DNA of 64,000 bases. Origin: Malania oleifera. Its lineage: Eukaryota > Streptophyta > Magnoliopsida > Santalales > Ximeniaceae. Shown piece by piece: positions 34,944 through 61,697 of the stretch; position 1 is the first letter of the stretch; each line of letters opens with the position of its first letter. Under the pieces are notes generated by a model that was given only the letters and a program-made list of their open reading frames with translations, was not told where the DNA came from and made no database searches. Position numbers and translations under genes: made by a program. Where the stretch lies: contig NC_080423.1 of assembly GCF_029873635.1 (NCBI RefSeq), forward strand, positions 109,943,087 to 110,007,086. Reading direction: 5' to 3'.

Positions 34944-36877
34944 TGGTGACCCGAAGAATAATAGCATTTTAATAATAATAAGAGGGAGAGAAAATAGATA
35001 CAGAAACAGAAGGAGGCCGTAAACTTCGTCGACGACATTGCATTTTAAAAATAATATTAAATAATCATAAATTCAGGAAATTACCCAGCTTTGTTGACGA
35101 ACACAGAATCTCGTCAACGAAGGTCTTCAGAATTTCGTCGACGAAAAAATACTGAGAGACGGTTCGGACTGCTCTGAATTTCGTCGACGAACACAGGGCC
35201 TCGTCGATGAATTTTGTGAAGGGCTCGTCGACGAGGTGACGTGTCTCGTCGACAAACCTGGTCCTATAAATAGTGGAAACTCAGGATTTTATCACACTTC
35301 TCTCGCTGCTCTCTCTCTCCTATGACTCCCTCTCCCTTCTCTCTTCGATTCCGACCTCACCAGTCGCCGAATCGACTATCCAAAGCTACCACGACGCTCC
35401 TGGCAGAGTTCTCTGCGAAGCTGCCGAAGCGGATCGTCGAGGAAACAGAGTTAGAATTCATCCTAAATTCAGGGTAAGATCTTTTATCCAATTTTTGACT
35501 TCCTGACAGTTATAAGAAATGATATAGACGGAAAAAATACTGATGTTATGTTCTGGCATATGTTGGTTTCAGGGTGTTTTTGTAGGTGGCCCTGCGGGTG
35601 TTAAGCTTGTATTCCCTAGAGGCTTTCCAGTAGTCAGTTAAGGGAAATATGTTATGCTAAGAAATTTCAAAATATTAGACAGTTTATTTATTTACGAAAA
35701 TTATGTATTTTAGTATGGTGTGGCTTATGATTATGTATATGATACGAGGATATGTTTTACGAATTTAGTTTCCTGATTTTATGAATTTCAGTATTATGGT
35801 TATACGAATTTCAGTATCATGATCTTACGGATTTCAGTACCATGATTTTATGAATCTTAGTACCATGATTATACGAATACCAGTATTACGAATATGCAAT
35901 TTCATGCTATGATTATTCAGATTTCAGTACGTTATATAGCATCATGGTTATTTCAGTACTTCAGAATCATGGTAAATCGGTTAGTTTTGTATAGAAATAT
36001 ATTATATGATATCAGACCCTGTTGGACTTGCAGCTACAAAGCACGGTACCGTTGCTATAGATATTATGTTACTTTATGAGTGCAACCACCTATTCAGATA
36101 ATACGTGATACGGTCGACCACCTGGGCCCTTGAAGAGGTTAGGCTCCCCATCCATATATGGGTTGAGGTGGGCAGGTCAACTAACGAAGTTTAGTGATTT
36201 ATTCCTGGTTGGCTAACCAGGGTAAATCCAGCCTACGGGCCGCACAACCTCGTCATGAGGGGCATGTCATGACACAGATAGCCACAAGGAACAGTTTCAG
36301 TTACTATTATTTACGTATTGATTTACAGAAACGGGGATCTTACTATATACACTAAAAGTATTTTGAATTATAACCATAATACTGATATGTCGAGCAATAG
36401 GGAAAAAGGGGTGGTGTACTTTATTATTTGTGATGTACTTTTTTACTCAGTTATTCATGTTTATATGAAACAAATTTCATGATATATAGTAGCTCATTTG
36501 GCACACACTAGTAATAGAATATTTCTTCTTACTGAGCGTTGGCTCATCCTAGTGTTAAAATATTTTTCAGGTGATCCAGGTAGGCGAGCAGATCAGGCTC
36601 GCAAATAAAGGGGCGTCTGTAGTGCCCTGTCAGAGAGAAAGTATCATTTTTGGGAGCGTTTTTGTATATCCCAGTACAGTTGAGGGAATTTTTAAAAAAC
36701 AATTATATGTGTATATTTTGGGAAACATAATAGTACTCTGATATTGATTTTGTATTTTATATAATGGTTATATTTGTATGATTCTACTTCCTGCTGCTTA
36801 GGTTAATATCATGATATCAGAGTATGTTATTTGCTATTATGAAAAAAAAAATCAATTTAATTAAGCAGGTCGTTACA
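34944..36877 (+). mobile_element. Solo LTR, gypsy-like family 1
   Basis: It starts TGGTGACCCGAAGAATAATAG and ends GCAGGTCGTTACA. It is flanked by GCTCC (34939-34943) and ACTCC (36878-36882), which agree at 4 of 5 positions. Two further members of the family are in the nest (45007-56222 and 43621-56803). A TATA box at 35264-35271, a CT-rich leader and an array of CGTCGACGA dyads upstream of the TATA box mark the U3/R part, so it reads on +. No internal region remains. Confidence 0.85.
35024..35271 (+). promoter_or_regulatory. Dyad array and TATA box of the solo LTR
   Basis: About eight variants of TTCGTCGACGAA or CTCGTCGACGAG lie within some 230 bp and end just before CCTATAAATAGTGG. The same arrangement is seen in the other two LTRs of the family (about 43702-43930 and 45098-45236). 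It is presumed to be the enhancer and core promoter of the LTR. Confidence 0.65.
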
Positions 36878-38499: not shown

Positions 38500-38611
38500 T
38501 AGCGACAATGACATCTACTTATTGATGTTACTAAAAGTTCCCTAACAATTTAATTAGGAGAATTTTGCTACCTTTAGGAACTAGATCTAGCAAAATGGGT
38601 TATGACTTCTA

Positions 38612-38890
38612 ACCCGTCCAATTAAGATGAGTTTTCATTTTTGATTTTATTTTTTAATAAAATATTAAATAATAGTCTGATTGGAAAAAAAAAAAATTCT
38701 CACTTTGATGCGTACGAAATCTCGCTTGAAAGTGAAGCAGCGTTTGATGCGAGGCACTTAGGTCCAGTGAGATTTGCTTGGAAATTGACAAAACTCGCTG
38801 GATGATCCAGTGAGTTTTCCTTCGAAATCGACTGACATTTGATGCATGGCAAAACTCGCTAGACCATCCAGCGAGTTTTGCTCAAATTTT
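38612..38890 (+). repeat. Left arm of a long inverted repeat, with palindromes
   Basis: Starting with TCCAATTAAGATGAG and TTTTGATTTTATTTTTTAAT, this segment matches, in inverted order, the segment at 41470-41745. It holds near-perfect short palindromes at 38790-38817 and 38851-38879 of the form AAAACTCGCT-GGATCATC-type centre-AGCGAGTTTT. Confidence 0.7.
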
Positions 38891-39370
38891 GAAAGTCTTC
38901 TTCCTCCTTCATTTGCTCGCGAATTGTAGAGAGAGCAGAGAGGAGGCAGCGTTGTAGAGCGGAGGGCAGAGCAGCCGAGCCAAATGATTGGATGTGAATT
39001 GTAGGTGACCGTTGGAGAGGAGAGGCGAACGTTGATCGTCGAATGTGGGGAGGAAGGTATAAAAGGGGGAGATTAGGTATGTAGCTTCTTCAACCCTTAT
39101 GCTCACATTATTGAATTCAGACTTGTTAGTTTAAGTGGAGAATTTGTTAGTTTGATCCAAATATTCGTTAATGTGTTTAATAAATTAGTATGTAACACTT
39201 CCAATTTGTTGATTGGAAACATTTGCTAGAAACCCCCAATATTAAGGTTATGGTTATTCTGTTTTTGTATTTTATTTTATTGTATTTAATATTGTGTTTC
39301 TTACAATTTGTTTCATGCAAATGTGTATATACTTTATGTGTAATTGTTATTGAAAAAAAATATATTTTAT
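38891..39370. other. Spacer inside the inverted repeat
   Basis: It starts with a GAGAGG/GAGCAGAG-rich stretch (38925-39060) and continues AT-rich. No gene was recognised. Confidence 0.4.
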
Positions 39371-39622
39371 ATTGTATTGTGTATGTGTAATTGTTATTGA
39401 AAGAAAAAATTGTTTAATTAATATATACTATATGTGTGATTGTTATTGAAAAGAAAATTTGTTATTGAAAAAAAATTAAGGTATGATGTAATTAATATAT
39501 ATTGTATTGTGTATGTGTAATTGTTATTGAAAGAAAAAATTGTTTAATTAATATATACTGTATGTGTAATTGTTATTGAAAAAAAAAATTCTTATTGAAA
39601 AAATTAAGGTATGCTGTAATCG
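39371..39622. repeat. Tandem repeat, period about 130 bp
   Basis: The unit beginning ATTGTATTGTGTATGTGTAA at 39371 recurs at 39501. Each unit also has internal TGTTATTGAAA repeats, so this is a two-copy minisatellite with shorter nested periods. Confidence 0.85.
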
Positions 39623-39772
39623 TTGAATATGAATATTTTCGGATTTGAAAAAAGATTCACCTTGTATATTGTATTTAAAATTGTTATTGAAAAAAAATTA
39701 AGGTATGCTCTAATTTACTGTGTTAATCATTGAATTGGATTTATATTGGAATTTGATTTGGATTTATTTTCA

Positions 39773-40830
39773 GACCAGGGTTAGGCAAGCCAATCGTACT
39801 ATAGAAGAATTGATGGATTTCTTATTTTGATCTAATTGAGTAGGCCAACCGCAATTTAGATCCAGCTTTCGGGCCGCACAACCCTGATCATGGAGGAAAG
39901 CATGATGTGGAGAATACCCTCAGGGCAGCCATGAGTTACAGACAGCACATGTATTCGTTACCGAGGACATTCATGAGTTAAATGGTGAAATGAAAATAAG
40001 AAAAGAAAGAGTGTGAGTTTAATTATATAAATAATTAGATGAAGTAAAACTCTCCGCTTTAGGGCTTACTAAGTAAGGTGAGTGCTCTGATAAGTATCAT
40101 TTGTAGCCACACCCGAGTTAATCAGGTAAGGTTACAAATGATATCAGAGTAAAGGGACGCTACATGTATGGGCGTGTAATCTCCCCTATCATCGGGAACT
40201 TTCGCTGATAAATATTGGTTGTATGTGTATAAATATGAGAAATGATATCTAAACTTAAGAAATCATATTTTATATTTATATGATAATGAGTATATATCTG
40301 TATATTTTTTTTCAGATGATATAATTACTTAAAAGAGTGTATTATGATATAATTGAACTCATACTGTACTGCCACACACTATGAATAATTTATTCGTTTT
40401 TCTGAGAGTTGTCTCACCCAAATATCTAAATATTACAAGAAAACGTGATAGACGAGTAGATAGAGCTCCGAGATAAAAGGGAGCTAATACCCTGATAGAC
40501 AGGGTGAGTATTATGAGCTAGGGATGTATGATTCCCCTAGAGTATTTTACTCTTTTTTTGGGGGGGGGGGGTGGGGTGCGGGGATGTGTTTAGATATGTA
40601 TATATATAGATGTTTAAAACTATGGTTATTTATATTCTGGATGGTTTGTATATATTGACTTCCGCTATTAGGTTTGTGTAAATGAGATTTACCGTTTACC
40701 CAGTACCCACTTTCGGGTTGGGTTGTGTTGAGGTGGTATCAGAGTATTTCATGTGGCCAATGTTTGATTAATATTTATTATTTATTGGAGACAAAAATGA
40801 AAAAAATGGTATGAAAATTGGAGTGTCACA
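39773..40830 (+). mobile_element. LTR fragment related to the outermost LTR of the nest
   Basis: It shares with the LTR at 59618-61697 the same ordered landmarks: CGGGCCGCACAACC, AACTCTCCGC, the GATAAGTATCA/GATAGGTATCA pair, TAATCTCCC, TGTCTCACCC, and an end in a TGT(C/T)ACA string. The left boundary is unclear. It is a fossil fragment with no coding part. Confidence 0.65.
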
Positions 40831-41469
40831 ATTACAAAGCAGATTAAATTCAAAAGAGGGGAAAGAATAAGAATCAACTACATCTTTTGCTTTTTCTTCT
40901 CCGATTTGACAGTCATGCTAATTGTTCACACTTCAAAGTCTTCCAAAAACAATAATGTGGAGAAGCAGGAGGACGTGGATCCTTAAGAGCCATATAATAT
41001 AACTATAAATTTAAGCCCCCATATGCTTTGGGGAATGGTGTGAAACTCTAAAATTTTTAGGAAAGAAGAATAAAGAAAATATAATTTTGTATACTATTTA
41101 TTTTTAATTTTTCTTAACTCTTAATTTTATTAATGATATATTAATATTTTTAAATTTTAAAATATAAATATTAATGATTGTAAATTAATTTCTTTCATTA
41201 ATTTATTATATTTTTTATTTTTTGCTTTTATTAGAATCAAACAAAAAAAGTAATCCCGTTTGTAGCTTGAAAAATATAAAGAAAATAAAAAGAAAAGGAA
41301 TCCACTTTTTTATATTTAGTTATTGACCAAAATTAAAAAAAAAATTGAACAAATGAACAAATAAGTTTTTTCTTCATTTTTCCCACATTAAAACACAAAT
41401 TAAGTGTTCAAAATCTCAAAAAGATAAAAAGAGAATGGAATACTTAGGATTTTTTAATTTACAAAAAAA
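40831..41469. other. AT-rich spacer
   Basis: A- and T-rich sequence between the LTR fragment and the right inverted arm. Nothing was recognised. Confidence 0.5.
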
Positions 41470-41745
41470 ATACATGCAGTGTAAATTTTGTTGGACCAGC
41501 CAACGAGATTTAAACAGTCAGACTAATCGTGTTTTGATGCGTGTCACTTAAATCTCCCTAGACCATCCAGCGAGATTTGCTTGGGAAAGAAGCAGGTGCT
41601 GATGCGTGACAAATCTCGCTAGACCATCTAGCGAGATTTTGTAAGCATCAAAATAGGAAATTTTTCTCCATTCAGATTGTTATTTATTATTTTATTAAAA
41701 AATAAAATCAAAAATAGAAAAAACTCCAATTAAGACGGCTTCCGA
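41470..41745 (-). repeat. Right arm of the inverted repeat, with palindromes
   Basis: This is the inverted counterpart of 38612-38890. Palindromes of the form AAATCTCGCTAGACCATCTA-GCGAGATTT lie at 41550-41579 and 41611-41639, with a weaker one near 41487-41512. Each is preceded by a GATGCGTG-type string, as in the left arm. Confidence 0.7.
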
Positions 41746-41837
41746 ATTATGAAAGTCAATTCGTTTATAAACAAGTCAACCCATGACCCGCCGTTTATAC
41801 CTAATACCAATTTAAAAGAACCCTAATCTCTTATCTC

Positions 41838-42236
41838 TTAGTCTTACCCACACCAATTGCCCTTTGCCCTTTCCCTTTGCCCTCTGCCCAAGCTCTCAGC
41901 ATTGCACATCGCTCTTTATGCATCCTAGCACTGCAGCACTAGAACATTGTCACCGCACGCTATCCCCCTCCCTCTCACTCGCAGAGTTTGTCTCCCTCAG
42001 TCCCTCTCGGCTCTCACGATCTCGATTCTCTGTCTCTCCCTCTCACAATCTCACTCTCAAGCCTCAATGTTGTCGCACGTTGTCCCCTCCCTCTCACTCT
42101 CAATCTCCCTCAGTCTCCGTCTCTCCCTCTCACGATCTCAGTGACATCTCACCCTAAATCTCCGACTCTCGCTCTCACGATCTCACCCTTAGGCCTTAGT
42201 CTCCCTCTCGAGCCTCAGCTCACTCTCAAGCCTCAA
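41838..42236. repeat. CT-rich degenerate repeat tract
   Basis: CCCTCTCACGATCTCA-type units recur many times. The tract resumes after the Cassandra LTR (42556-42600). Open stretches in it are by-products of the repeat. It may be the leader of an old element. Confidence 0.55.
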
Positions 42237-42555
42237 TTTGATACCCCATGGATGAAAAGACTTAAAAAGATTAGATGTTACTACCCATATCAACAAAGTG
42301 TACCTTTCTTTTCAGGAGCTTTCCCATAAAAACTCCACGATTAAGCATGCTTGCCTTAGAGCAATATTGGGATGGGTGACCTCCTAGGAAGTTTTCTCAG
42401 GAAGTGTGTGAGTGAAGACAAAACACACCGAAAATGACACGTGTTGATCTATGGGGCCAGTCATTAGTCCGATAAGGCCTGCCCCCCTATTGTCCAGGCC
42501 AGGTGGAGGAGGAGAGATGTAGTACTCCCTGGCAGACTCAGGTTGGGGCGTTACA
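42237..42555 (+). mobile_element. Cassandra TRIM solo LTR
   Basis: This is a 319-bp LTR ending GGGGCGTTACA, flanked by CTCAA (42232-42236) and CTCCA (42556-42560). It contains the Cassandra hallmark, a 5S rRNA-like segment, followed by CAGGAAGTGTGTGAGTGAAG and GGGGCCAGTCATTAGTCC as in known Cassandra LTRs. Only one LTR is present. Confidence 0.88.
42331..42395 (+). other. 5S rRNA-like segment inside the Cassandra LTR
   Basis: It reads AACTCCACGATTAAGCATGC, TTGCC, then GGGATGGGTGACCTCCTAGG. These match the central part of plant 5S rRNA, including the A-box region (42341-42353) and the C box GATGGGTGACCTCC (42371-42384). It is part of the element and not a ribosomal gene. Confidence 0.88.
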
Positions 42556-43195
42556 CTCCATCTCCCTCCACTCTCTCAGAATCAGTCTGTCGATCTACCT
42601 TTTTTTTAAAGAAAAAATGTAAGATTTAATAAATAAAAAAGGAGTACTTTTCTTTAAAAAATAAATTTTAAAAAATTAAAATATATAATTATTTTTTAAA
42701 CGAATAACTTGTGACCCATCCATTTAATAAACGGACGGATTAGAGTTTACATGGTTGCGACCCGTTTAACATCAACCCGTTTACGATTTGATTCATTTTC
42801 AACTCATATGGACCCGACTCGTGAATCTATTTTGCCACTCGGGAAGCAACGCAATATTATTAAAGCATATAAAATTAGAAAATGAGTTAAGAGAGAGAAA
42901 AAAAAACACAACATTTAATCTCTACATAAAAAAATATGTTCTCTGTTTTTTTAATAATTCTCTAAGATAGCATTTGGTTCACAATTGAAATCGGAATTAG
43001 AGTTGAAATTTATTGGAATTGAAAACGAAATGTCATATTCCTAATTTGTATTATAATGTTTGGTATTTTTATAAGAATCGAAAAATGAATCTAATTTATC
43101 AATTATGTCATTATAGTATAAAAAATTATTTATTAATTTAAAATGAAATAATAACATTATAAATATGTAATTTTTACCTACTATCATTTTATGAA
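42556..43195. other. Spacer left of the LTR nest
   Basis: A CT-rich end, then AT-rich sequence. From about 42971 it reads GCATTTGGTTCACAATTGAA and TCGGAATTAGAG, resembling a MITE end. A partly similar inverted string near 62800-62870 suggests that the whole nest may sit in an old MITE; this is weak. Confidence 0.4.
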
Positions 43196-43288
43196 TGTAG
43201 CGATCTCAAAAATTGTTATACTTGATTAGGGTTGTAATCCTAAAAATAAATAAATAAATAATTAATTAATAATTATTGATTATATAAT

Positions 43289-43301
<13 letters not shown>

Positions 43302-43337
<36 letters not shown>
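43302..43337. repeat. (TAA)n/(TTA)n microsatellite
   Basis: ATA repeats pass into TTA repeats, giving a perfect inverted trinucleotide tract within LTR E. Confidence 0.9.
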
Positions 43338-43344
<7 letters not shown>

Positions 43345-46158
43345 TAAGTAAGCAACCTGAAAGATCCTTCAGGATTCAATTTTTTTTTTTTTTTTAATCC
43401 AGAGAACATCCCCCCCTTCTCTCTCTCGCCAACTCTCTCTCCTCACATGTAACACCCCAACCCGCCATGTGGGGCTCAGGGTGCTACTTTGATGACGTCT
43501 GTGTACCTGATACCATATTCATTATATAAAAGCAGCGAAAATAAATGATATATTCTCCAAAACATTACTAGAGTTCTAAACTGCTCACATACATAGAATT
43601 CTCACAATATTCATATTACATGTAACGATCCAAAGAATAATGGTATTTAAATAATAAAGAGGGAGGAAAATGGAAACAGTAACAAAAGGAGGCAGCCGAC
43701 TTCGTCAATGAACGCTTCATGTTCGTCGACGACATTGCACTTTGGAGAAAATAACCCAAGAAATTTTTCAAGCCTCATCGACGAGGTCCCGTCTCGTCGA
43801 TGAGAAGATACCAAGAAGGATTTTTGGAAGTCTGAAATTCGTCGACGAGGGTGCAAGTTTGTTGACGAACTTTCTACAGGACTCGTCGACGAGGTGACAT
43901 GGCTCGTTGACGAATCCCGCAGTATAAATAGTGCTTAAACTCAGTTTTATGTAGAAAATTTCAGCGAAGACTCTCTCTCTCCTCTCTTTACGGTCCCTCT
44001 CCCATTTTTCTTCGATTTCAGCCCCGTTAGCCACTGGATCGATGATCTGAGGCCACCACGACACTCCTGGGGAAGTTCTCTCCAAGTTTGCTGGAGCGGA
44101 TCGTTGGTGAGACGAAGTTAGATTTCATCCCAAATTCAGGGTAATGTCTTTTAATAAAAATTTGGTTTAATAGCAGTTGTCGAAAATGTAGTAGATGTAG
44201 AAATAATGATGTTTTGTTCTGAAATTTATGGTTTTCAAGGTATTGAGTGGAGAACCCTGCGGGTGTAGGACTCGTTACAGTAGGGAGATTTTAGCAGAAA
44301 TCGGATAAAGAAAATATGCTATGCTAGGCAAATTTAGTATGATTTTCAGTATAGTATATATATTTATACCAGATTATTATTCACAGCAAGAATTAATACA
44401 GTTTATCCATTATGTATAATATGTTTTGAATTATTGTGTGACTTGAGAATATAGATATAGTACAAAGACATGCTTTACAGTATTTTTCATAACTATATTT
44501 TACAAAATATACAGACAGTGAATATATTTTATAGTAATTACAGAATACCATGATTATACAGTTTTAAGTACCAAGACATACAATTTTACAGTTCATTTCA
44601 GAAATATAGTTAATACAGATACAGTTTATCACAATGTCACGGTTTATACAGTTGTTATAGACTCATGGTAAAACAAATAGTTGTATATAGAGATGTATTA
44701 TATAGTATCAGATCCCGTTGGACCATTACAGATTACAGAGCACGGTATCGTTGCTATATACAATATATAAAGTGCAACCACCTATTCAGATAATACGTGG
44801 TATAACAATCGATTGTCTAGAGCCCACGAGTGGACAGGCTCCCCATCAGATATGAGTTAAGGAGGGTTGATCAGACTGATGGAGTATAGTGGTTTATCTT
44901 GGTCGACCAACTAGGGTAGATCCCGCCTACAGGCCGCATAACCCTATCATGAGGGATTAAATCATGACACACAGTTATCCATAGGGAAGTTTTCAATCAT
45001 TACTATTGTAGTGACCCGAAGAATAATAGCATTTTAATAATAAGAGAGAGAGAGAGAGAGAGAGAAAATAGATACAGAAACAGAAGGAGGTCGTAGACTT
45101 CGTCGACGAATACAGGGTTTCGTCGACGAAGGCCTTAAGGATTTTGTCAACGAATATAGGGCTTCGTCGATGAATTTACTGAAGGATTCGTCAACAAAGT
45201 GACATGTCTCGTTGACGAACCTAACCCTATAAATAGTGGAAACCCGAGATTTTTATCATTTTCACTGCGCCCCTCTCTCTTTACGTCACTCTCCCCCTTC
45301 TCTCTTCGTTTCCGGCCCCACCAGTCACCAGATCGACGATCTGAAGTCACCACGATGCTCCTGGCGGAGTTCTCTGCAAATCTGCCGAAGCAGGTCGTCA
45401 GGAAAACAGAGTTGGAATTCATCCCAAATTCAGGGTAAGGCATTTTAGTCCTTTTTTGGCCTTATGATAGTTATAGGAAATGATATAGGCAAAAAAATAC
45501 TGATATTATGTTCTGGCAAATATTGTTTCGAGGGTGTTTCGTAGGAGGCCCTACGGGTGTTAGGCTTGTATTCCCTAGGGATTTTCCAATAGTCAGGTAA
45601 GGGAAATATGCTATGCTAGGTATTTTTAGAAACATTATACAGTTTATTTAATTATGAAAATTATGTATTTAGTATGGTGTGGCTTGTGAATATGAATATG
45701 GTACGGATATAAGTTTTACGAATTTAGTTTCATGATTTTTACGAATTTCAGTATTATGATTATGCGAATTTCAGTACCATGATTTTATGTATTTTAGTAC
45801 CATGATTATACAAATCTTAGTATCATGATTATACGAATCTCAGTATTATGAATATGCAGTTTCAGTGTTATGAATGTATAATTCTCAATAGTATTACGTA
45901 TGAACTATAGTTACAGTTTATGCAGCATCATGGTTATTTTAGTACTTCAGAATCATGGTAAATTCATATATATATATATATAGAAATATATTATATGATA
46001 TCAGACCCTGTTGGACTTGCAGCTCCAGAGCACGATACTGTTGCTATAGATATTATGTTACTTTATGAGTACAACCACCTATTCAGATAATACGTGGTAA
46101 AGTCGACCACCTAGGCCTTTGAAGAGGTTAGGCTCCCCATCCAGATATGGGTTGAGGT

Positions 46159-48082
46159 TGTCACGACCTGCTCATTTTCCACATTTTTTTTTATATAATA
46201 TCAATATTACATATCCCATATTCCAACTCAGTAGGTCACAATCCTCCTGGACCCGTGGGTACCAGGAATAAATTAGAACATACAGTAGAAGCATACGCAG
46301 CAAAAAATGTACAATCATATTCATACCGTCATATCATACATCACAATATACTAGAGTTACTAGAATCATTGTACTTCCATATATACATCCCAAAAATAAA
46401 ATCTAGGGACGATTCCCACAGAGCCATACTATCCATACAAAAAACTTACCCTTCAAAAAGGGCAAATAAACCACACTATATCTACGGGGCTTTTCCCGCT
46501 CTCCTATCTGGGGTTCCTGAAAAGTTTATAAGATTTAGGGGTGAGACACCTCTCAGTAAGGAAAATAAACTAATACCAATGTGTGGTAACATGAGTATCC
46601 TGTGCTCTACATATACCATACATAACATATTCAATACTGTTTATCAAATCTGGAAAAACAGATGTAATTCAAAACATGGCAGAACATACTGTATTTTCAT
46701 AAACATTTCTCATCTCATATCATAATAATAATAACATAAAACAATCCCTGGTAGGTTAGCTGGCTGTTATCATGTATTACCCCCACATAACTGGGTTGTG
46801 TGGCCCGAAGGCGGGACCTGACAATGGTTGACCGACCACTGCCAAGTCAAACAGTAGTCTGTAGGTCTAATGGATCTACCCAGACTGGTCTATACACCAG
46901 GGGCGATAACAGTATACTTCTTGAAAATAACCGCATCGACCATCCAATCTCACACCACTCCGTACAGCGGCATTAACATAAATATCATGATCACGAGGAC
47001 CATGGACACATATCAACGGTACCGTGCAAGTGCTAGCCTAGACCAAACCAGCTAGGTTCTGATATCATATAACATATACTAAAATCGTGATACATAGATA
47101 TCTCATATCATTTATTTTCACATCAATCATATCATTTTGCATATATACATGTATCATGAAAATCATCGGCCCGTACGCCGATATTACACATTTTATCATA
47201 ACTCGGCCCATACGCCGGCAAACATAGCACAGCCCGTACGCTGGCAAATCACATCCACGTAGCATGAACCGTACGCTGGAAAATCATAGTCACATAGCAC
47301 GGCTCGTACGCCAGCAAAACATAGCACAGCCTGTACGCTGGCAAATCACAGTCACATAGCACGGCCCGTACGTCGGCAAATCATATAAAAATCTTGGCCC
47401 GTACGCCAATTTTCCATCATAAAAATCCATATCATCCACATTCCCAGAAAACAGTATTTCACAACATTTTTACTCATGTCACACAAACGGATTTTCACAT
47501 ATTCAATCATACGATCATTTTCACAGTCTTTTGCAAATATAACACGTATATATATAAAAATATTTTTATTTTCCATAAATCAGATGCTAAATATATATAT
47601 ATATATATAAACAAGTATTTTCTCAAAACAAAATTAGCTTTGTTTATCCCCTTACCTGATTCCTGTAAAGCCCCTAAGAAAATCTTCTCTGCACCCGCAG
47701 GGTTCCCAACTCAACAACCTTGGAAACGAACTCGCAGAATTAAAGTTCAGTATTTTCGTACGTACAACATTTTCTATAACTACCACAAAGTCAAATTTGG
47801 CTTAAAAAATCTTACCTCAACTTAGGGATGATTCCCAATGTTCCCAACTAACACCCCTGAAAATGAAAATTTTCAGTGTTAAAGTTCAGTATTTTAACGT
47901 GTATATCACTCTCTTCAATTGTCAAAAATCCAAATATTGAGTATAAAGTCTTACCTTGGATTTGGGATGAAATCCAACTTCGTTTCCCTAACAATCTGCT
48001 CAGGCAGACTTGTAGAGAACTTCGTCAGGAGCGTCGTGGTGGCTTCGATTTGTCGATCCGGCGTAAAACTGGCCTGGAATCG

Positions 48083-48114
<32 letters not shown>

Positions 48115-48318
48115 ACAATGGGACTTCTTATAGAAGCTTATACAATTATATATATATACCTTTAACTTATATATATTACATATATATCATAATAACTTAT
48201 TTATATATATATATATATATTCCTTATCATACTATTCATTTTACTTGTTAATTTAATTATTTTATTATTTTATTATTTTATTATTATTTTTTAAATTTTA
48301 TTTTTCCCGGTTACTACA
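46159..48318 (-). repeat. Element A, 3' LTR (left copy)
   Basis: It starts TGTCACGACCTGC and ends GGTTACTACA. It is 2,160 bp long. It includes a tandem array with CGTACG cores (47158-47412) and a (GA)n run (48087-48114). Confidence 0.93.
47158..47412. repeat. CGTACG-core tandem array in LTR A (left)
   Basis: About eight degenerate units of roughly 30 bp, each with GGCCCGTACGCCGGCAAATC or a variant. CCGTACGC is part of a dyad (GGC-GTACG-GCC) in many units. The same array is found in the right LTR at 54016-54270. Confidence 0.85.
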
Positions 48319-48573
48319 TTCCTCCCCCCTTAAAAGAATTTCGTCCTCGAAATTTACTGTTCCCGTAACTCGCCATCCTTTAACTAGGAAAAAGGGTCTA
48401 CTCATTTTATTACCTACCCTCACTTATAGCGGAGAAATACCGTTGTTACATTTCGAGTCTTGGAAGATTACATATACAAAAGAAAACTATTCTCCCAAAA
48501 TTAAAATACTACACTAATTAACCATTACATGTACCTACAAAAGAAACTACCTAACTACTTGGATCTTATCCCA

Positions 48574-51500
48574 TCAACTTTCTTGGAATAGATGTAGATA
48601 TCTCTGTCTCATCTGCTCCTCGGATTCCCAAGAAGCCTCTTCTACTGTATGATTCCTCCACAAAACCTTTACTTGAGGAATTTTCTTATTACGTAGCTCC
48701 TGTACTTTCCTATCCCGAATCTGTACTGGTACCTCCTCATATCCTAGTGAATCACTAAGTTCCAACTCATCATAATTGATGATATAAGAAGGATCTGGAA
48801 TGTATTTCCTCAACATAGTCACATGGAATACGTCGTGGATCCTGGACAACACCGAAGGTAAAGCTAGCCTATAAGCTACCGGTCTCACTTTATCTAAAAT
48901 CTCAAATGGAACGATAAACCTAGGACTAAGTTTACCCTTCTTCCCAAAGCGCATAACCCCTTTCATCGGAGCTATCTTCAAAAATACGTGATCACCCACA
49001 TCAAACTTTAAATTCCTGGGGCGATGGTCAGCATAACTTTTCTGTTGGCTCTGAGCTACACTAATCCTGTCTCTGATAAGCCGAACCTTATCACACTCTT
49101 GCTGCACAAGTTCTGGCCCCACTACTCGCCGCTCACTTCATCCCAAAACAAAGGAGAATGACATCTCCTACCGTACAGAGCCTTAAATGGTGTCATGCCA
49201 ATGCTAAACTGATAACTGTTATTATACGCGAACTCTACTAGCGGCATGAACTGAGTCCAACTACCCCCAAAGTCTAGTACACACGCTCTAAGCATGTCCT
49301 CTAATATCTGTATCGTCCTCTCAGTCTGCCCGTCTGACTAAGGATGGAATGTCATACTAAACGATAACTGAGACCCTAGAGCCTCTTGCAAATTCCTCCA
49401 AAATCGTGATGTAAATCACGGGTCTCTATCTGACACAATCGATACTGGCACCCCATGAGAATGTACTATCTCTTGAATGTAAATCTCCGCTAAATGGCTG
49501 AGGGAGTAGCTGATCTTGATAGGTATAAAGTGGACGGTCTTAGTCAAACGGTCAACAATCACCCAAATGGCATTTTGGCCATGTAATGCCGTCGGCAGTC
49601 TTGACACAAAGTCCATTGATATATGATCCCACTTCCACTCTGGGATGAATAATGGCTGCAATTGCCCTGCCGATGTTTGGTGCTCAGCCTTTACTTGCTG
49701 GCACGTCAAACACCGGGCTACATACTCAGCGATTTCTCTCTTCATGCCACTCCACCAGAATGTTTCACGCAAGTCTCTATACATCTTCGTACTACCAGGA
49801 TGAACGGTATACAAAGATTTGTGAGCTTCTTCTAAAATAGTCTTCCTGATCTTAGTATCGGCAGGAACGCATAATCTAGAACGGAACCACAAAGTTCCGT
49901 CATCTGCAATACTGAAATCCTCCCCCTGACCCATCTACACTCTGTATATCACCTCTGCTAATACTGGATCTTCCTTTTGAGTGGTTTTAATTATTTCTTG
50001 CAGAGTAGGTTGTACCACTAGACTGGAAATACATACTGGGAGATCACTCTCTACTAATTCTATGCCGAGTCTCTCTAGATCCATCATGATCGGATGTTGG
50101 ATCCCCATAGTCGCCAACACTAGCTCCCTGGATTTCCTGCTCAACGCATCAGCTACCACGTTTGCTTTCCCCGGGTGATAATTGATGGTACAATCAAAAT
50201 CCTTAATCAACTCCAACCACCTTCTCTGCCTCATATTCAGTTCCTTTTGCGTGAAGAAATACTTTAAACTCTTGTGGTCGGAGAAAATCTCACACTGCTT
50301 GCCATACAGGTAATGCCTCCAAATTTTCAACGCGTGTACTACTGCAGCCAATTCAAGATCATGTGTAGGGTAGTTCTTCTCATATTCTTTCAACTGCCTG
50401 GACGCATACGGAACTACCCTGCCATGCTACATCAATACACAACCAAATCCTTTCAAGGACGCATCACTATAAATGACATACCCCTCACCCCCAGATGGGA
50501 TAACCAAAACTGGTGCTGTGACTAACCTCTGCTTCAGTTCTTGAAAACTCTGCTCACAGCAGTCGTCCCACTCAAATATGACATTCTTCCTCGTCAGTTG
50601 TGTCAAGGGTCCTGACAAAGCTGAGAATCGTTCAACAAAACGACGGTAATATCCAGTTAGCCCTAAGAAACTCCTAATCTCTTGGACATTTTTCGGTCTA
50701 GCCCAATTCACTACTGTCTCAATCTTGCTAGGATCCACAGAAATACCGTCTCCAGATATAACATGCCCCAAGAACATGACCTTCTCAAGCCAAAATTCAC
50801 ATTTACTGAACTTGGCGTACAACTTCTTTTCCCGAAGTGTCTGCAAAACCTGCCTCAAGTGCGTCTTGTGCTCCTCATAGCTCCTCGAATAGACCAGTAC
50901 AACATCAATAAAAACAATAACAAACTAGTCTAGGTATCGGTGAAAGACTCTGTTTATCAAGTCCATAAATACCGCAGGAACATTCGTCAATCCAAATGGC
51001 ATAACGAGAAACTCGTAATGCCCGTACCGGGTCCTGAAGGCCGTCTTCGAGACGTCTTCTGCTTTCACTTTCACCTTATGGTATCCGGATCTGAGGTCAA
51101 TCTTTGAATACACCCGTGTACCCTAGAGCTGGTCAAACAAATCGTCAATACGGGGTAGAGGATACTTGTTCTTGATTGTTACTTTATTAATTTCCCTGTA
51201 GTCTATACACATCCTCATAGACCCGTCTTTCTTCTTTAAAAATAGCACTGGAGCTCCCCACGGTGATACACTAGGTCGTATGAAGCCCTTATCAAGCAAA
51301 TCTTGTAACTGGTCTTTCAATTCCGCCAACTCTGTCGGTGTCATTCAATACGGTCTTTTAGAAATCAATGCTGTACCAGGAAAATGGAAAAATCTACTTC
51401 ACGATCAGGAGGCAAACTTGGTAATTCATCTGGGAACACGTCTGTAAATTCTTTCACCACATGCGTATTGATAAGCTTCAATTTATTTTCTGACGTTTCC

Positions 51501-52751
51501 TTCACAAAAGCCATGAATCCCAGACAGCCATTCTGAAGCAGTCTCTTCGCCTGAATAGCTGAGACCATCTGAGGTAAGGATTGCACTCGTGACCCTATAA
51601 ATCTAAATTTTGGTTTCCCTAGAGATCTGAATATCACTTTTTGTGGACGGCAATCTATGCTAGCAAAATTAGTTGCTAGCCAATCCATGCCAAATATAAC
51701 ATCAAACCCGTGCATGTCCAGCACTATCAAATCGGCAAACAAAGCCTTCCCTTGAATACCAATTGGACAATCTCGCACTATATGCCCCGATCTACCACAG
51801 CGATAGCACACTACACCACCAGCTCGACACTCTCCCTAGTGCCTCCTACCGCATGTCTAACAGACTGGAGGGCCCTGCCCTGTCTGCACCTCGCGTCCTC
51901 CCGTCTCCTGTCTCCATTCACTGCCATGGTTTCCTCTTCTCCACTGGCCCGGTCTATGCCCTACTGGTAGCCGGTAGATGTAGATCTCTTCCTCGGTCCC
52001 TGCTCCTCTACATCAAGTCGCTCACCAACCTCTGCCAAGGCTGCCCTATCAACAAACTCAACAAAATCCTGGATCTGCAGCACCACTACCTGCTTGAATA
52101 TACTCTGCCTCAAGCCTCTCTCAAACTGCCTCGCCTTCTTCACCTCATCAAGAACAATGTATGGGGCGAAACGAGAGAACTAGATAAAATGTGATGCATA
52201 CTACTGGACGGATAGCTTTCCCTGCTTTAGACTCAGGAACTTATCTACCTTAGCCTCCCTCACAGTAGCGGGAAAATATCTGTCAAAGAACAAATCTTTA
52301 AACCGATCCCATGTCATAGCTATTGGAGTCACCCTCTGCTGCTCCAATAGTCTCACCGCAGTCCACCACCTCTCAGCCTCTCCTATCAATCTATAGGTGG
52401 CAAAAAGGACCCTCTGTTCCTCAATACACTGCAGTACATCCAAGATCTTCTCAATCTCCTGTATCCAGTTTTCAACGGCTACAGGATCAACTCCGCCTGA
52501 GAACGCTGGAGGATTCATCTTCGTAAATTTCTCTATAGTGCACCCATGGCCTGCAGATGGATCACTCTACTCTCTCGAGCTCCTAGCGATCTCAGCCATA
52601 ACCTGTTGAGCCATGCTATGTAATACGGTGTCCGAGTCGGTTCTAGCTGCACCTGATGGTCCTGCTCCATCACTGCCACTCGCATGGGCACTATTTCCTT
52701 CTGGATCCATCCTGGAAAATAACAGTTGCAATTCAGTAATCCTATCCTCAT
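48574..52751 (-). pseudogene. Element A gag-pol remnants with chromodomain
   Basis: Fossil coding sequence read on -. From 5' to 3' there is a retrotransposon gag domain (about 52201-52518, with WIQEIEKILDVL and DRYFP), a CCHC knuckle CYRCGRSGHIVRDC (near 51780-51808), and a protease region (about 51640-51760, VIFGMDWLA). Reverse transcriptase follows (about 50430-51344, FMDLINRVF and [10 protein letters not shown]), then RNase H (about 49935-50393, [11 protein letters not shown]). Next is integrase with its HHCC zinc region and core (about 49416-49934, CLTCQQVKAEHQ and WDHISMDFV). Last is a chromodomain (about 48574-48720, VLWRNHTVEEASWESEEQM). The chromodomain places it with the chromoviruses. 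It is broken in several places. Confidence 0.92.
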
Positions 52752-53014
52752 AATTTACCCACTTATCGTCACCACTTATCTCAACATTTCTAACTCATTT
52801 CTAATCCCCAGTCCTACAATCTAGGAACATAACCCGACAATAGCTTACTATGGTTTTCCTAAAATCGTCACCCCAGGAAAAACACAAAAACTACCACGGA
52901 AGTCCTGCTTCTAGACTATAGAACAAAACCTTAAATCATTTCCTAAACTCTGGTATTGTCTCTGTTGCACTCTAAAGTCTACTGAACCTAGCAACCTAGG
53001 CTCTGATACCAATC

Positions 53015-55078
53015 TGTCACGACGTGCTTATTTTTCTCATTTTTTTTAAAATAATAATAACAAAATCAACGTCACATATTCTAACTCAGCAGATCATAGA
53101 CCACCTAGACCCATGGGTACCGGGGATACATCAGAGCACAAAACAGAAGCCTAACCAGTAGAAAATATACATACATATTCATACCGTCATATCATACATC
53201 ACAATATACCAGAGTTACTAGAATCATTGTACTTCCATATATACATCCCAAAAATAAAATCTAGGGACAATTCCCACAGAGTCATACTATCCATACAAAA
53301 AACTTACCCTTCAAAAAGGGCAAATAAACCACACTATATCTACGGGGCTTTTCCCGCTCTCCTATCTGGGGTTCCTGAAAAGTTTATAAGATTTAGGGGT
53401 GAGACACCTCTCAGTAAGGAAAATAAACTAATATCAATGTGTGGTAACATGAGTATCCTGTGCTCTACATATACTATACATAACATATTCAATACTGTTT
53501 ATCAAATCTGGGAAAACAGATGTATGTCAAAACATGGCAGAACATACTGTATTTTCATAAACATTTCTCATCTCATATAATAATAATAATAACATAAAGC
53601 AATCCCTGGTAGGTTAGCTGGCTGTTGTCATGTATTACCCCCACATAACTGGGTTGTGTGGCCCGAAGGCGGGACCTGACAATGGTTGACCGACCACTGC
53701 CAAGTCAAACAGTAGTCTGTAGGTCTAATGGATCTACCCAGACTGGTCTATACACCAGGGGCGATAACAGTACACTTCTTGAAAATAACTGCATCGACCA
53801 TCCAATCTCACACCACTCCGTACAGCGGCATTAACATAAATATCATGATCACGAGGACCATGGACACATATCAACGGTACCGTGCAAGTGCTAGCCTAGA
53901 CCAAACCAGCTAGGTTCTGATATCATATAACATATACTAAAATCGTGATACATAGATATCTCATATCATTTATTTTCACATCAATCATATCATTTTGCAT
54001 ATATACATGTATCATGAAAATCATCGGCCCGTACGCCGATATTACACATTTTATCATAACTCGGCCCATACGCCGGCAAACATAGCACAGCCCGTACGCT
54101 GGCAAATCACATCCACGTAGCATGAACCGTACGCTGGAAAATCATAGTCACATAGCACGGCTCGTACGCCAGAAAATCATAGCACAGCCTGTACGCTGGC
54201 AAATCACAGTCACATAGCACGGCCCGTACGTCGGCAAATCATATAAAAATCTTGGCCCGTACGCCAATTTTCCATCATAAAAATCCATGTCATCCACATT
54301 CCCAGAAAACAATATTTCACAACATTTTTACTTATATCACACAAACGGATTTTCACATATTCAATCATACGATCATTTTCACAGTCTTTTGCAAATATAA
54401 CACACACACACACACACATATATATACACACACAAGTATTTTCTCAAATAAAATTAGTTTAGTTTATCCCCTTACCTGATTCCTGCAAAGGCCCTAAGAA
54501 AATCTTCCCTGCACCCGCAGGGTTCCGAACTTAACAACCCTGAAAACGAAAACTCGCAGAATTAAAGTTTAGTATTTTCGTACGTACAACATTTTCTATA
54601 ACTACCACAAATCAAATTTGGCTTAGAAAGTCTTACCTCAACTTAGGGATGATTCTCAATGTTCCCAACTAACACCTGAAAATGAAAATTCTCAGTATTA
54701 CAGTTCAGTATTTTTATGTGTATATCAGTTTCTTCAACTGTCAAAAATCCAAATATTGAATATAAAATCTTACCTTGGATTTGGGATGAAATCCAACTTC
54801 GTTTCCCTGACGATCCGCTCAGGTAGACTTGTAGAGAACTTCGTCAGGAGCGTCATGGTGGCTTCGGTTTGTCGATCCGGCGTAAAACTGGCCCGAAATC
54901 GAAGAAGGAGAGAGAGTCGTAGGAGAGAGAGAACAATGGGGCTTCTTAGAGAAGCTTGTACAATTTTATATATATATTCCTTATCATACTATTCATTTTA
55001 CTTGTTAATTTAATTATTTTATTTTATTTTATTATTTTATTATTATTTTTTAAAATTTTATTTTTCTTGGTTACTACA
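53015..55078 (-). repeat. Element A, 5' LTR (right copy)
   Basis: It starts TGTCACGACGTGC and ends GGTTACTACA. It is 2,064 bp long. It is closely similar to the left copy along its length; a 66-residue open stretch is identical in the two (47065-47265 and 53923-54123). Confidence 0.93.
54016..54270. repeat. CGTACG-core tandem array in LTR A (right)
   Basis: The same array as at 47158-47412. The number and order of units look the same in both LTRs. A (CA)n run follows at about 54402-54418. Confidence 0.85.
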
Positions 55079-55418
55079 GAGGTGGGCAGGTCGACTGACG
55101 GAGTTCAGTGATTTATTCTTGGTTGGCCAGTTAGGGTAAATCCAGCCTACGGGTCGCACAACCTTGTCATGAGGGGGCATGTCATGACACACACAGGGAA
55201 CAGTTTCAATTACTATTATTTACGTACGGATTTACAGAAACAGGGACCATACTTATGTACCATAGAAGTACTTTGAATTATAACCATAATACTGTTATGT
55301 TAAGTAATAGGGAAAATGGGTGGTGCATTTTATTATTTGTACGGTACTTTCGTATTCAGTGATTCATGTTTATATGAAAACAGATTTCATGATATATAGT
55401 AGCTCATTTTCCACACTA

Positions 55419-55862
55419 TGTTAGGAATAAAGAACAAATTCCCGAAACCTGTGAGAAACAAAATAGAGAAAAATAACGCCAAAGAAAAATCAATCACACG
55501 CACAAGACAATATTTACGTGGTTCGGCAATTTTGCCTACGTCCACGGAGTTGCGGGGATTTCAATATTATTAGGAAGAAAACACAGAGAGTGCGGCGATA
55601 CAATGCTCTCCCTCTTGCTCTTTCGCAAGTACAACCACCCGAACCCTAATCACCCGAGAGCAATCCTTTTTATATGTTGCGCCTAGGGTTCCGTTCCAAA
55701 AGGGCTCCAAAATTTTCCCGGGGGCATTGCCCTCGGACCCCCCACAAGTACAGCCCAAGCCTTCGCTCCATAAACTAAGCCTTAGGATAGAAATCTCTAA
55801 TTAAATAGGAGTCGAGTTGGCATCCAAATTAAAACACAACTAGGCTCCACAAAAGCCCAACA
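55419..55862. mobile_element. Small solo LTR inserted in LTR B
   Basis: A 444-bp sequence starting TGTTAGGAATAAAG and ending AAAGCCCAACA, flanked by an exact CACTA duplication (55414-55418 and 55863-55867). It contains CACGTGGTTCGGCAATTTTG and CCTACGTCCACGG, typical of copia-type and TRIM LTRs. One LTR only; the family was not identified. Confidence 0.82.
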
Positions 55863-57551
55863 CACTAGTAATAGCATATTTCGTCTTATTGAGCGTTGGC
55901 TCATCTCAGTGTTGAAACATTTTTCAGGTAATCCAGGTAGGCGAGCAGATCAGACTCGCAAATAAAGGGGCACTATCAAAGAGTGAGTATTATTTTTGGG
56001 AGCGTTTTTGTATAGCCCTCACCAGTTGAGGATATTTTGGGAATACAGTTATATTTGTAAATATTGGAAAACATTTCAGAACTCTAGTATTGTATATAAT
56101 GGTTATGGATATGTTTATATGATTCTGCTTCTCGCTGCTTAGGTTAATGTTGTGGTATCAGAGTATGTTAATTGTTACAGTGTTTTAAAAAAAAAATTCA
56201 GTTAATTAAGCAAGTCATTACAATTATGTTTATACAGATTTATAGAGGCTAAAAATATATATATATATTAGAAGTATTTTGAGTAGAAACCTAAAGTACA
56301 GATATGTTAAGCAACAGGGAAAAGGTGATAGTTCATATAACTGGTATTGTATTTACAGATTCAGTGATACATGATTATATAGTAATAGATTTTCACAGTA
56401 TTGTAACTCAATTGCCACATACTAGCAATAGCATATTTCGTCTTACTGAGCGTTGGCTCATCCCATTACTTTAACATTTTTCAGGTGATCCAAGTAGGCG
56501 AACAGACCAGGCTCGTAGATAGAGGGGCCTCAATATTGCCCTGACAGTAGAGTGAGTACTTTGGGAATATTTTTGTATAGCCCTAACCAGTTGAGGGTAT
56601 TTTAGGAAACAATCATATATGTATATTTTGAGAAACATGTTAGCACTCTGGTATTGTATATAATTTATGGTTATGTTTATTTGATTTCCGCTTCTCGCTG
56701 CTTAGGTTGATGGTTAGGTTTAATTCAGTTTGGTATCAGAACATTATAAATGTTATACTATATATAAAAAAAAAAAATCGTAGTTAAATAGCAGGTAGTT
56801 ACATTACATCACAACCAAAAGAAAGAAAGCCTGACGCGCTATACTTCGCAACACTGTCGAGGCATCCATATCATCCTCATTGGAAGTATCTACGTAATTA
56901 TCCCTTCCGACTACAACATCCTTTCCCCTAGAATTCATCCTAAAGATAGGATAGAAACTGACTTAGAAATTCCACATTTATCATGGTTGATGCAAGTATG
57001 GAATGAAGAAATAATATAACATATGAGTTCGTAGTTAAAAAGAATCATTTACACAATCCTACCACAAAACCGTCGACGGTTTTTCTAGAGGGTCCCAAAA
57101 CTGTTGATGGAAAACCTAAATTATAGAGACCTCTTTTGAAGAAAACCGGCAACGGTTTTATATTCCTCTTAGGAAACCGCAGACATTTTGCCTCCTGTAA
57201 GCCATAATACCCTCCGTTGCTCATATAAACTTAGTCATATCAAAGTATCGGCCCCTAATCACAACTCCGAGACTAAACACATACTCACCGGACCTAACAT
57301 TCCTACTTAAGTTCCCAAGTTTCAGTCTCTCATCCCAAAAACAAAACCATCGACGGATTTATCATGGTTTTCCTGAAATCGTCATTCTAAGAAAAACACA
57401 AAAGACCGTAAAAGGATCTCCACCTCTAAGCTTCTAGACCAAAACTCACATAATCTACCCATTCCTATCCTTAACTTATCTCAACCTATACTCTGGTAAT
57501 TATTAACCATTGAAATCTGCAGAACCTAACAAATCTAGGCTCTAATACCAT

Positions 57552-59334
57552 ATGTAATGCCCTAACCTGTCATGTGGGGCCTAGGGTGCTACTTTAGTGA
57601 TGTCTGTGTATCTGATATCATATTCATCATATGAAAGCAATGGAAATAAATGATACATTCTCCAAAACATTACTAGAGTTCTAAACTGCTAACATACATA
57701 GAACTCTCCCAATATCCATATTACATCCCAACCAAAAGAAAGACAACTAACTCAGTCCATACGATCATATTACATATCCATGGACTTTAAACATAATTTA
57801 AATACATCATAGTTCTTACAAACACTCATAAAAACTGAAACTAACCATCACCCCGCTCTAGAGCTTGCTAAGCTTGATCTCAAGATGGTCCTGATAAATG
57901 ATTTGTATATTGGGGCGAGACACTTCTCAGTAAGGCAGATTAAGTTAATATCAGTGTATGGCCAATGTGAGTTTTAATGTATACAAAATGTCATCAGTTG
58001 TTAATTAACCACAGTAATAAAATCATTCTCAGATCATACTCACTCACACACACACACATACACAATTATTTATAAGCGAAAGTTCCCGAAGATAGGGAAG
58101 ATTACACACTTATACATGTAGCGCTCCTATGCTCTAATACGTTATGCAACCTGGTATGACTACAACTGATACTTATCAAGGTACTCACCTTTTTCAGCAA
58201 GCCCTCAGGCGGAGAGTTTACTTCGTCATAAATATTCATGCATTTTAATTCACATACAAGTACTCACATCTTTACAGTTGAAAAATATGCATTTACTTTC
58301 TCAGTATAAACCAGTTCAATAAATAATAACACCATTTACATAAATTAACATATATGCGTAAAAGACACTCCCTAGGACTAACACACCATTTACTCCCCCC
58401 ATGATATGTGTTGTGTAGCCCAAAGGCTGGACTTATGCCTTGGGGGATCAACCCAGACAGAGTCAAAGTAACCATCTGCAAGTGCGTCTGTAGGCATCCA
58501 TAGCCCAATTGCAGGTCCGATTGCCTTACCACTTCCCAGTCCGATCCTCAGGAAAGGTACTTCATCCTTACGCAGGCCAATTGGTTGAGACCACCCTACG
58601 CCTCTCAGTACAATGTGGGCGCACATGGTCTAATAATAATTCCCTAGTAACGATATCGTGCTCACAATACAACTGGTCCCCAGGATTCTTAAACCATATC
58701 ATGCAATTTCGATAATAAGAACTGTAGTATAAATTTCATTTCATATAGAACCTGGCATTTAATAAAAAAACCTAGCCCCCAACCGTTAAATAAAACCCGG
58801 TCCTCAATCATCATATCAAATCCCAGTATTTTGCAAAGGCAGATCCAGTATGTTTCACAAACAATTCAGTATTTTCACAACCATACCCAAATTCGGTTCT
58901 ACAATAAATAATACCGATTACTTACCTACTACACAATTTCAGTATTTGAATATAATCCATTAAACAACCAAAAAATACCTCATAGTATATTAGTTTGTAA
59001 AGTAAAACCAAGCTTTTCGCCATTCAATTATTCAAAATACTATATCATATATCCTATATTTGTAAAATCCATTTTTGAACGGTCGGTTTTCAAAACAACC
59101 TTTGAAATCACGTACATTTTAATCGGTTCAAACTCGATAAAAACCTGACTTAACTTATTCCCCTTACTTGTTCTTGAAAAAGAAATTAATTCTGTTCGGA
59201 AAACGGAAAATCCTAACTTTTTGATCCCACCGCATAAAATGAACCGGCAAGTCGAGAAAAGAGAGGAAAGGGATCGGAGTGTCGGGTGAGCCTACGAGAG
59301 AGTGAGAGTAGAGAGAGAGAGAGTCCAAAACCCT

Positions 59335-59414
<80 letters not shown>

Positions 59415-59617
59415 TTTTAAGTTATGAAAAATATTGTGTTGCTTAATCCTTAAGTAAGCAAAGTCGCAAGAAAACCGTCGACAGTTTTTCCCAAGCTCTA
59501 TAAAATTTTCGACAATTTGAGTCCTGCCAAACCAATTTCCTTATTTTTCCTTTCTTTTCCTTTATTTCTCTCTTCCTTATTTATTTTTTTTTTATTTTTC
59601 AAGTTCGGGTTTCTACA
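57552..59617 (-). repeat. Element D, 5' LTR (right, full copy)
   Basis: It starts TGTAATGCCCTAACC and ends GGGTTTCTACA. It includes a long (GA)n region at 59280-59413 and strings such as AAAACCGTCGACAG. Its first 195 bp match the left-end piece of D. Confidence 0.82.
59280..59413. repeat. (GA)n microsatellite in LTR D
   Basis: A long, slightly interrupted GA run. On the element's own strand it is a CT-rich stretch, as found in the leaders of the other LTRs here. Confidence 0.95.
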
Positions 59618-59908
59618 TCACCTCTCTCTCTCTCCTCTCCACCTGTCTCCTTCTCTCTTCAATTTCTTCTCCGATTTTTGACCGATTGGAGAACGGAAAA
59701 TACCCCTGGGTTTCATTCTTTGCCACTAATATTTTAACCAGAGTGAATTTGTCGTAGGAGAGTCATAAGCACCACTCCTAGGGTGAGGTAAGGGAAATAA
59801 ATTATGTCAGAAGTATTTATAATTTGACCAATTAAATTGTAATATGAAATTACAGGAATTATATATACGTTTTTCTGAGTATTTTGGTATATGGAAATTG
59901 GATTTTAG

Positions 59909-59940
<32 letters not shown>

Positions 59941-60380
59941 GAGTTAATTAAATGAGTGTTTGTGAGCTTAGGGATTTTATAATAATTGTTATTTTAAAGT
60001 TGAACCGATTGAATTAAAGTATTTGATTTTTGGGTTATTAGAGTAGATTTTCTGAATGATTTGTCCTGTTGAAATTATGAGTTTGAGTTGTTAAACATGT
60101 TTTGGTAAACAATTAAAATGAGTAGGGTTGGTTATATCCGTTTTTCTTTTAAATATATATATTAAGTTAAATAAATGGTGGAGATAATTAAACCAGTATT
60201 TTCGGTAAAACAAATATTGGGTATAAAATTTTCTGTTTTCTAGTAGTTTATATAATTATAATTATTGAATAAATTGTGTGGCATGAGATTTAATTATATT
60301 TTACTGCATAATTAAATTTGAGTATTTTTGTGGTATTATCATGAAAATATGATTTGGACTATTTGATGGAAATACTGAAA

Positions 60381-60383
<3 letters not shown>

Positions 60384-60410
<27 letters not shown>
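60384..60410. repeat. (GT)n microsatellite in LTR E
   Basis: An uninterrupted GT run followed by TATATATA. Confidence 0.95.
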
Positions 60411-60418
<8 letters not shown>

Positions 60419-61697
60419 TCTGGAATGGTTGAAAAGAATGCATGTATAGTAAATAATTATGGTGGCATATAAATCATTGGTAGTTTTATCAAATTGCAAA
60501 GTATAGTTTAAGAACTCCGATGGACCATAGATTGCTCGGTACCATAGCTACAATAATGAAGAGTTAGTGCAACCACACGTCTCGAGGAGAGTATTGGTAT
60601 TGAATAGTCGATTGGGCTAATGAAGTGTAGAGTTTTCCCTGGAGTATAAACCAACATGGGAAGGTCAGTCGTACTAGCAGAGATGGAGTATAGTTGACTT
60701 AACCTAATGGTAGGCCGGCTAGGGTTAAATCTAGCTTACGGGCTGCACAACCTGTCATAGGGGGAAACATGTCATTTATCCATTCGATGAGAGTTCTTAT
60801 ATTCATATTTGTAGATTTAACCAGAGTATAACAAAGTAGAGTATATGAAAGCAGAACATATTTAACAAAGTATAACAGAGCAGAGTATTTCAAATATTAC
60901 AATTCACAGAGTATAGTTGTAAAATATTTACAGTACACAACTTATAGTTGTAAAAGTATTAATAGCTTACAGTTTATAGTATTTATATAGGTGTGAATTA
61001 TAGTTTGCATGTGAAAGTTATTTATAATAAAGTATTAAATTTACTTTATACTGTGGCATTACATGTGATTGGAGCGAGGTAAACTCTCCGCCCAAAGACT
61101 TGTTAAATAAGGCGAGTGTCCTGATAGGTATCAGATGTAGTCACGTCCAAGTTAAATGGATAAGGTTATATAAAGTATCAGAACAAAGGGGCACTACATG
61201 TTATGGGCTTGTAATCTCCCTAATTCTCGAAAACTCTCACTTATAAATAATGGTGTATGTGTGAGTATAGTTTATAAAAGTATTAACAGTTGTTGTTGTT
61301 TATTAACAAATGGTTATTTTATGTATACACTAAACTCATTAACCACACACCGATGATAATTTATTTCATACTTACTGAGAAGTGTCTCACCCAATCATTA
61401 TCAAATATTTTTTAGATGTCATGTAGAGTATGACAGTAATTAGAGTGCGCAACAGAAGCATGGGTGGGGTTAGAAATAGTAGTTTAGATTAATTATTAAA
61501 TTTGTCATTTGTAGTTTATCTTAGAATTTCCAAGGATGTATTAAATTTGCTATTGGAGATATTCTTGTAATAAAAGGTTTTTAGTACTCTGGTATATGAA
61601 TATTGAGGTCTTCCACTGTGTAATTATTTTGGTATCAGAGATTTATTTATTTTTTAAATAACACTCCAGACCCCAATATCGGGTTCGAGGTGTTACA

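Follow-up and report, generated by a model that had tools for sequence, protein, structure and literature searches.

Nested insertions of LTR retrotransposons have been catalogued at length in plants. On wheat chromosome 3B, 30,199 nested insertions were reconstructed, in up to 8 layers, as reported in PMC4290129, and the survey of 12 plant genomes in PMC6911290 describes nesting as common in plants, with Ty3/gypsy elements over-represented. In the account given by that survey, autoinsertion into an element's own family is seen in some families of some species, more often among Ty3/gypsy elements, most families showing no such preference, and LTRs are not commonly targeted. Gene conversion has also been considered in this setting: the analysis reported in PMC7251063 puts at 25% the share of LTR pairs with predicted converted regions, mostly of 100-1000 bp, the removal of which raises the ages, and finds in about one fourth of nested elements an LTR divergence above that of the host element. 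Programs that resolve nested insertions are described in PMC2672092 and PMC11020628.

We report here a nest of six LTR-retrotransposon insertions, termed A to F, in a 64-kb window, by which we mean the whole stretch of DNA that was analysed (36% G+C, zero N). Judged by its retrotransposons, this is most likely DNA of a plant nucleus. As in the plant clusters of PMC4290129 and PMC6911290, so far as these are described there, young elements lie within old ones and the order is read from interruption; the depth, five levels, falls within the published range, which in wheat 3B reaches 8 (PMC4290129). Unlike those clusters, this one allows the insertions of A, F, B and C, four of the five inner ones, to be checked inside one 64-kb window. 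There is also a likeness to autoinsertion, with B lying in its relative C and D in its relative E. The insertion site is an LTR in every layer whose place can be told, in contrast with the targeting reported in PMC6911290. The whole case fits published nests, same-family insertion and LTR gene conversion, and is a tidy further example of them; it leaves the understanding of nest formation unchanged, and its value is that of an illustration where insertion order, empty sites and LTR divergence can be set against one another at a single locus.

Layers of the nest and their order

The regions read were 43000-64000 and the left neighbourhood 33800-43200, and a self-comparison covered the whole window. 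This confirmed the nest as real. Its outermost layer, E (43196..61697, plus strand), is probably a single LTR, with 2327 bp outside the layers nested in it (43196-43447 and 59623-61697), and is flanked by ATGAA/ATTAA, which agree at 4 of 5 bases. E is interrupted by D (43448..59617, minus strand; TCACA/TCACC, 4 of 5), an internally deleted element of apparent Ty3/gypsy type; D is interrupted by C (43621..56803, plus strand; TTACA on both sides), a solo LTR with 1962 bp of its own; and C is interrupted by B (45007..56222, plus strand; ACTAT/ATTAT, 4 of 5), a solo LTR with 1842 bp of its own. B in turn carries two inserts, namely A (46159..55078, minus strand; GAGGT on both sides), a full-length Ty3/gypsy element whose reading frames are broken, and F (55419..55862, strand not assigned; CACTA on both sides), an LTR-like insert of 444 bp with the ends TGTTAG...CCAACA. 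Outside the nest lies copy G (34944..36877, plus strand; GCTCC/ACTCC, 4 of 5), an uninterrupted solo LTR of the B type that served as a control.

All layers from A to F start with TG and end with CA, and a 5-base target duplication accompanies six of six insertions, E's own included; three are exact (C, A and F) and three agree at 4 of 5 bases (E, D and B). For two 5-mers picked at random here, the probability of agreement is 0.021 for at least 4 of 5 bases and 0.0017 for all 5 (200,000 draws). The layer ends were set by eye at TG/CA, which leaves some freedom in the duplication calls, but five matching duplications out of five are far beyond chance even with that freedom. The order of PBS and PPT places A and D on the minus strand; B and C are plus, since they are colinear with G and the related stretch of A runs the other way, and E is plus because it matches, on the plus strand, D's LTR in reverse complement. 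The earlier note on this DNA had described a five-layer nest with a readable order, with exact duplications for C (TTACA) and A (GAGGT), agreement at 4 of 5 bases for E, D and B, and the orientations E +, D -, C +, B +, A -. Its account is borne out in each of these respects, the TG/CA ends and duplications lying where it had placed them, and F, which is absent from its list of layers, adds a sixth event.

We suggest that the nest was almost certainly built by successive integrations of related plant LTR retrotransposons, each entering an older one. E would have landed first, followed by D into E, C into D and B into C, and A and F would then have entered B separately and last, in either order. 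The insides of E, B and C would later have been lost via recombination between their own LTRs, giving solo LTRs; the same route looks likely for F, of which no relative was found in the self-comparison of the window. D would have been cut down by a deletion that took away most of its interior and the greater part of one LTR.

The insertions of A, F, B and C are shown by their duplications together with empty sites, for at these four of the five inner insertions the outer element continues across the insert as it does in an uninterrupted copy. Copy G was the control, joined by C for the F site, and D's own complete LTR was used for C in D. The three pieces of B lie end to end on G (left to 1226, middle 1222-1563, right 1563-1934), and the 5-base overlap at the A site (1222-1226 of G) is what the target duplication predicts. 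When the 90-base flanks of A are joined and aligned with G, the alignment passes through the site ungapped; the joined flanks of F run through in both G and C, B showing a gap of 2 columns at eight bases to the left of the site. For B in C, the two pieces of C follow one another on G, their local matches being separated by 52 bases in G and 50 in C, and the junction aligns with G without gaps; the likeness there is moderate (28 of 41 columns on the left, 23 of 41 on the right), which counts against this test. The empty site for C in D lies at 57721 in D's other LTR, where 57 of 61 bases match on the left side, duplication included, and 22 of 23 match on the right side from the duplication on, after which D's deletion point is reached; it counts against this right-hand test that it rests on about 18 bases beyond the duplication.

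For D in E, the duplication, the termini and the orientation together point to an insertion of D into E. No uninterrupted copy of E spanning the D site was found in 36900-43190 or in the self-comparison of the window; within 36900-43190, three pieces match the second half of E, none of them across the D site. The failure to find such a copy, and a duplication that agrees at 4 of 5 bases, count against this step. Flank continuity, which had been proposed as a check on the nest, was found for A in B, B in C and C in D, D in E being without a comparison copy.

An apparent nest might also be produced if repeats from different places were joined by assembly, and long related repeats, such as the 2 kb LTRs of A and the mutually alike B, C and G, are indeed where assemblers fail. 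However, TG/CA ends with 5-base duplications six times over are unexpected from false joins, and an artefact would not be expected to restore, across the joins, the sequence order seen in G and in the other LTR of D. We hence regard an assembly origin as extremely improbable, and retain successive integration as the explanation of the nest.

Relatedness and anatomy of the layers

B and copy G are 84.3% identical over 1793 sites. C stands further off, at 70.7% from B over 1739 sites, with homology along most of the LTR, and at 69.8% from G over 1813 sites. Families of such elements are usually delimited by an identity of 80% or more across most of their length. Under this rule B and C as one family were rejected, and they would be different families of one clade; the earlier description of B and C as the same family captures their homology and oversteps the threshold. 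The LTRs of A share with B, C and G a same-sense stretch of 176 to 285 aligned columns at 71-77%, together with shorter ones. The nest is made largely of related lineages, for which the term "same family" would be too strong in the case of B and C. The likeness to autoinsertion is limited in the same way, as both pairs are distant, B and C as given above and D and E at 68% over one 355-column alignment.

B and C each consist of one LTR with the ends TG...CA and a flanking duplication, and have no inside, as is typical of solo LTRs. The earlier note took the event as a solo LTR landing in another; B and C do have that form today, but either may have been a complete element when B inserted and have lost its inside afterwards. 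The 444-bp size, the termini and the exact duplication of F make it a candidate solo LTR as well.

The two LTRs of A (46159-48318 and 53015-55078) are 94.5% identical overall. The 5' LTR is followed by the PBS TGGTATCAGAGCC, which we take to be a match to initiator tRNA-Met, and a purine tract precedes the 3' LTR. Ten pieces of A were given to a Pfam search and eight had a match, the families being Retrotrans_gag, CCHC knuckle, RVP_2, RVT_1, RNase H, Integrase_H2C2 and SH3_Tf2-1; in the integrase, the zinc-binding and SH3-like parts were matched and the core was not. Ty3/gypsy elements have protease, RT, RNase H and integrase in that succession; A shows it after gag and, with its two LTRs, PBS and PPT, is one of them. 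Chromoviruses carry a chromodomain at the C terminus of the integrase; in A, the Pfam family Chromo scored below threshold (22.9 bits, E 8.2e-05, cut-off 25.1). We suspect, as an assumption of our own, that A belongs to the Tekay lineage. By our reading, the frames of A are interrupted by a minimum of nine in-frame stops and three changes of frame, and A is hence not autonomous now. Short tandem-like subrepeats around CCGTACGC are present in both of its LTRs, at 47197-47408 and 54055-54266. When one 165-residue piece of A, covering the RT end and RNase H, was compared with viral contigs, no relative was found.

Layer D retains a complete 5' LTR of 2065 bp (57553..59617, minus strand), in which 57549-57726 matches 43444-43621 at 87%, and, on the same strand, a segment with PBS, leader and short ORF (56827..57552) that is cut by the internal deletion at about 56826. 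This right LTR adjoins the PBS-like TGGTATTAGAGCC, and the left side holds the tail of the second LTR only. The short ORF, MNSRGKDVVV..., lies at 56804-56938, where gag should start, and from this position it may be gag. Likeness to D's other LTR ends at about 56826, where the element jumps into the last part of its 3' LTR. This jump, coming after the complete 5' LTR with its PBS-like site, leader and short ORF, makes D an internal deletion derivative, and its PBS and LTR likeness suggest that it is of Ty3/gypsy type. A solo LTR was also considered for D and was rejected on its full LTR, PBS, leader and tail of a second LTR.

D and E share a same-sense stretch of 341 bases (the 355-column alignment above) and four shorter ones. 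E has one LTR, the ends TG...CA, a duplication and no inside, the pattern of a solo LTR, and it is from its termini and its partial likeness to D that we would regard it as an LTR. Elsewhere, at 39784-40434, there are pieces that resemble the second half of E and the LTR of D at 66-74% and may represent another decayed LTR of that clade.

Divergence of the LTR pairs

LTR pairs are found in A and D only. The pair of D differs at 22 of 173 sites (K 0.145), the comparable part being 173 bp, and that of A at 114 of 2057 sites (K 0.058). The outer D is thus more diverged than the inner A (Fisher p 0.0007), as the nesting demands, which supports the order given above; against A's right-hand zone alone, the excess of D has p 0.03. 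At the rate of 1.3e-8 per site per year used in PMC7251063, the whole-pair ages would be about 5.6 My for D and about 2.2 My for A.

The divergence of the A pair is unevenly spread. Between 46159 and 46345, 41 of 187 sites differ (21.9%; 24 ts, 17 tv), all 41 in the first 157 bases; between 46346 and 47460, 17 of 1115 (1.5%); and between 47461 and 48318, 56 of 755 (7.4%). Among 2000 shuffles, none was as clean as A's best stretch of 500, 900 or 1200 columns; the zones were set after looking, the shuffle test allows for place, and the three stretch lengths were our choice. At the same rate, the ages of the three zones within this one element come to about 10, 0.6 and 3 My, and LTR divergence should accordingly not be read as a single date; a K above 0.2, as in the first zone, is discarded in the procedure reported in PMC7251063. 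As a three-zone mosaic, the pair has no single age. The comparison of LTR pairs for age that the earlier note had called for hence orders outer D before inner A and leaves A without one age, and its further view of the nest as a dated local record of retrotransposon bursts fares poorly, with pairs in A and D only, a comparable part of 173 bp in D and a mosaic in A. The six insertions are an order, not bursts.

We posit that the mosaic is best explained by gene conversion once A was in place. An exchange between its two LTRs accounts for the middle zone, and this low-divergence stretch of about 1.1 kb stands at the long end of the conversion sizes reported in PMC7251063. The highly diverged end of the LTR, unlike the converted regions described in that source, is left unexplained by conversion between the LTRs alone. 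It is hard to read as age, since it is more diverged than D and yet A must be younger; conversion from another subfamily is our best guess. A mosaic of two events, with about 1.1 kb converted between A's LTRs and about 160 bp at one end from another subfamily, is hence proposed tentatively, and we would place it somewhat short of an even chance. The left zone exceeds D in divergence, opposite to the nesting order (41 of 187 against 22 of 173, p 0.026, with zones chosen post hoc and overlapping 95% intervals of 16.2-28.6% for the left zone and 8.1-18.6% for D), and if this holds, the nest supports the import of about 160 bp without recourse to a clock. If true, nested clusters could serve as internal clocks that separate conversion from ageing.

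The uneven divergence might instead reflect regional variation in mutation rate without any conversion, and the separate copies B and G, in the part compared, are also uneven, with 7 to 32 mismatches per full 100 columns. Unlike separate copies, however, the two LTRs of A would be expected to age evenly after insertion. CpG sites normally mutate fastest, and it is the least diverged, middle zone of A that has the most of them (37 in 1115 bp), besides being cleaner than the shuffles; we consider rate variation unlikely. It could also be supposed that A was made by recombination of two different elements rather than by one insertion followed by conversion, as the drop from 41 differences in the zone 46159-46345 to 17 in the next 1115 sites would suggest. 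Elements recombining at two sites would be left with unlike flanks, whereas the outer flanks of A carry the exact GAGGT duplication and join up into an unbroken B, and we give this origin little credence, preferring conversion after a single insertion.

Other features of the window

Rfam gave no match in the window at gathering scores, and none in 42200-42700 up to E 1; a tRNA gene search of the window found no tRNA genes. The stretch 42330-42480 bears what we take to be a resemblance to the 5S-derived part of Cassandra-type miniature retrotransposons, and minus-strand ORFs at 6030-8882 are presumably fragments of copia-type retrotransposons.
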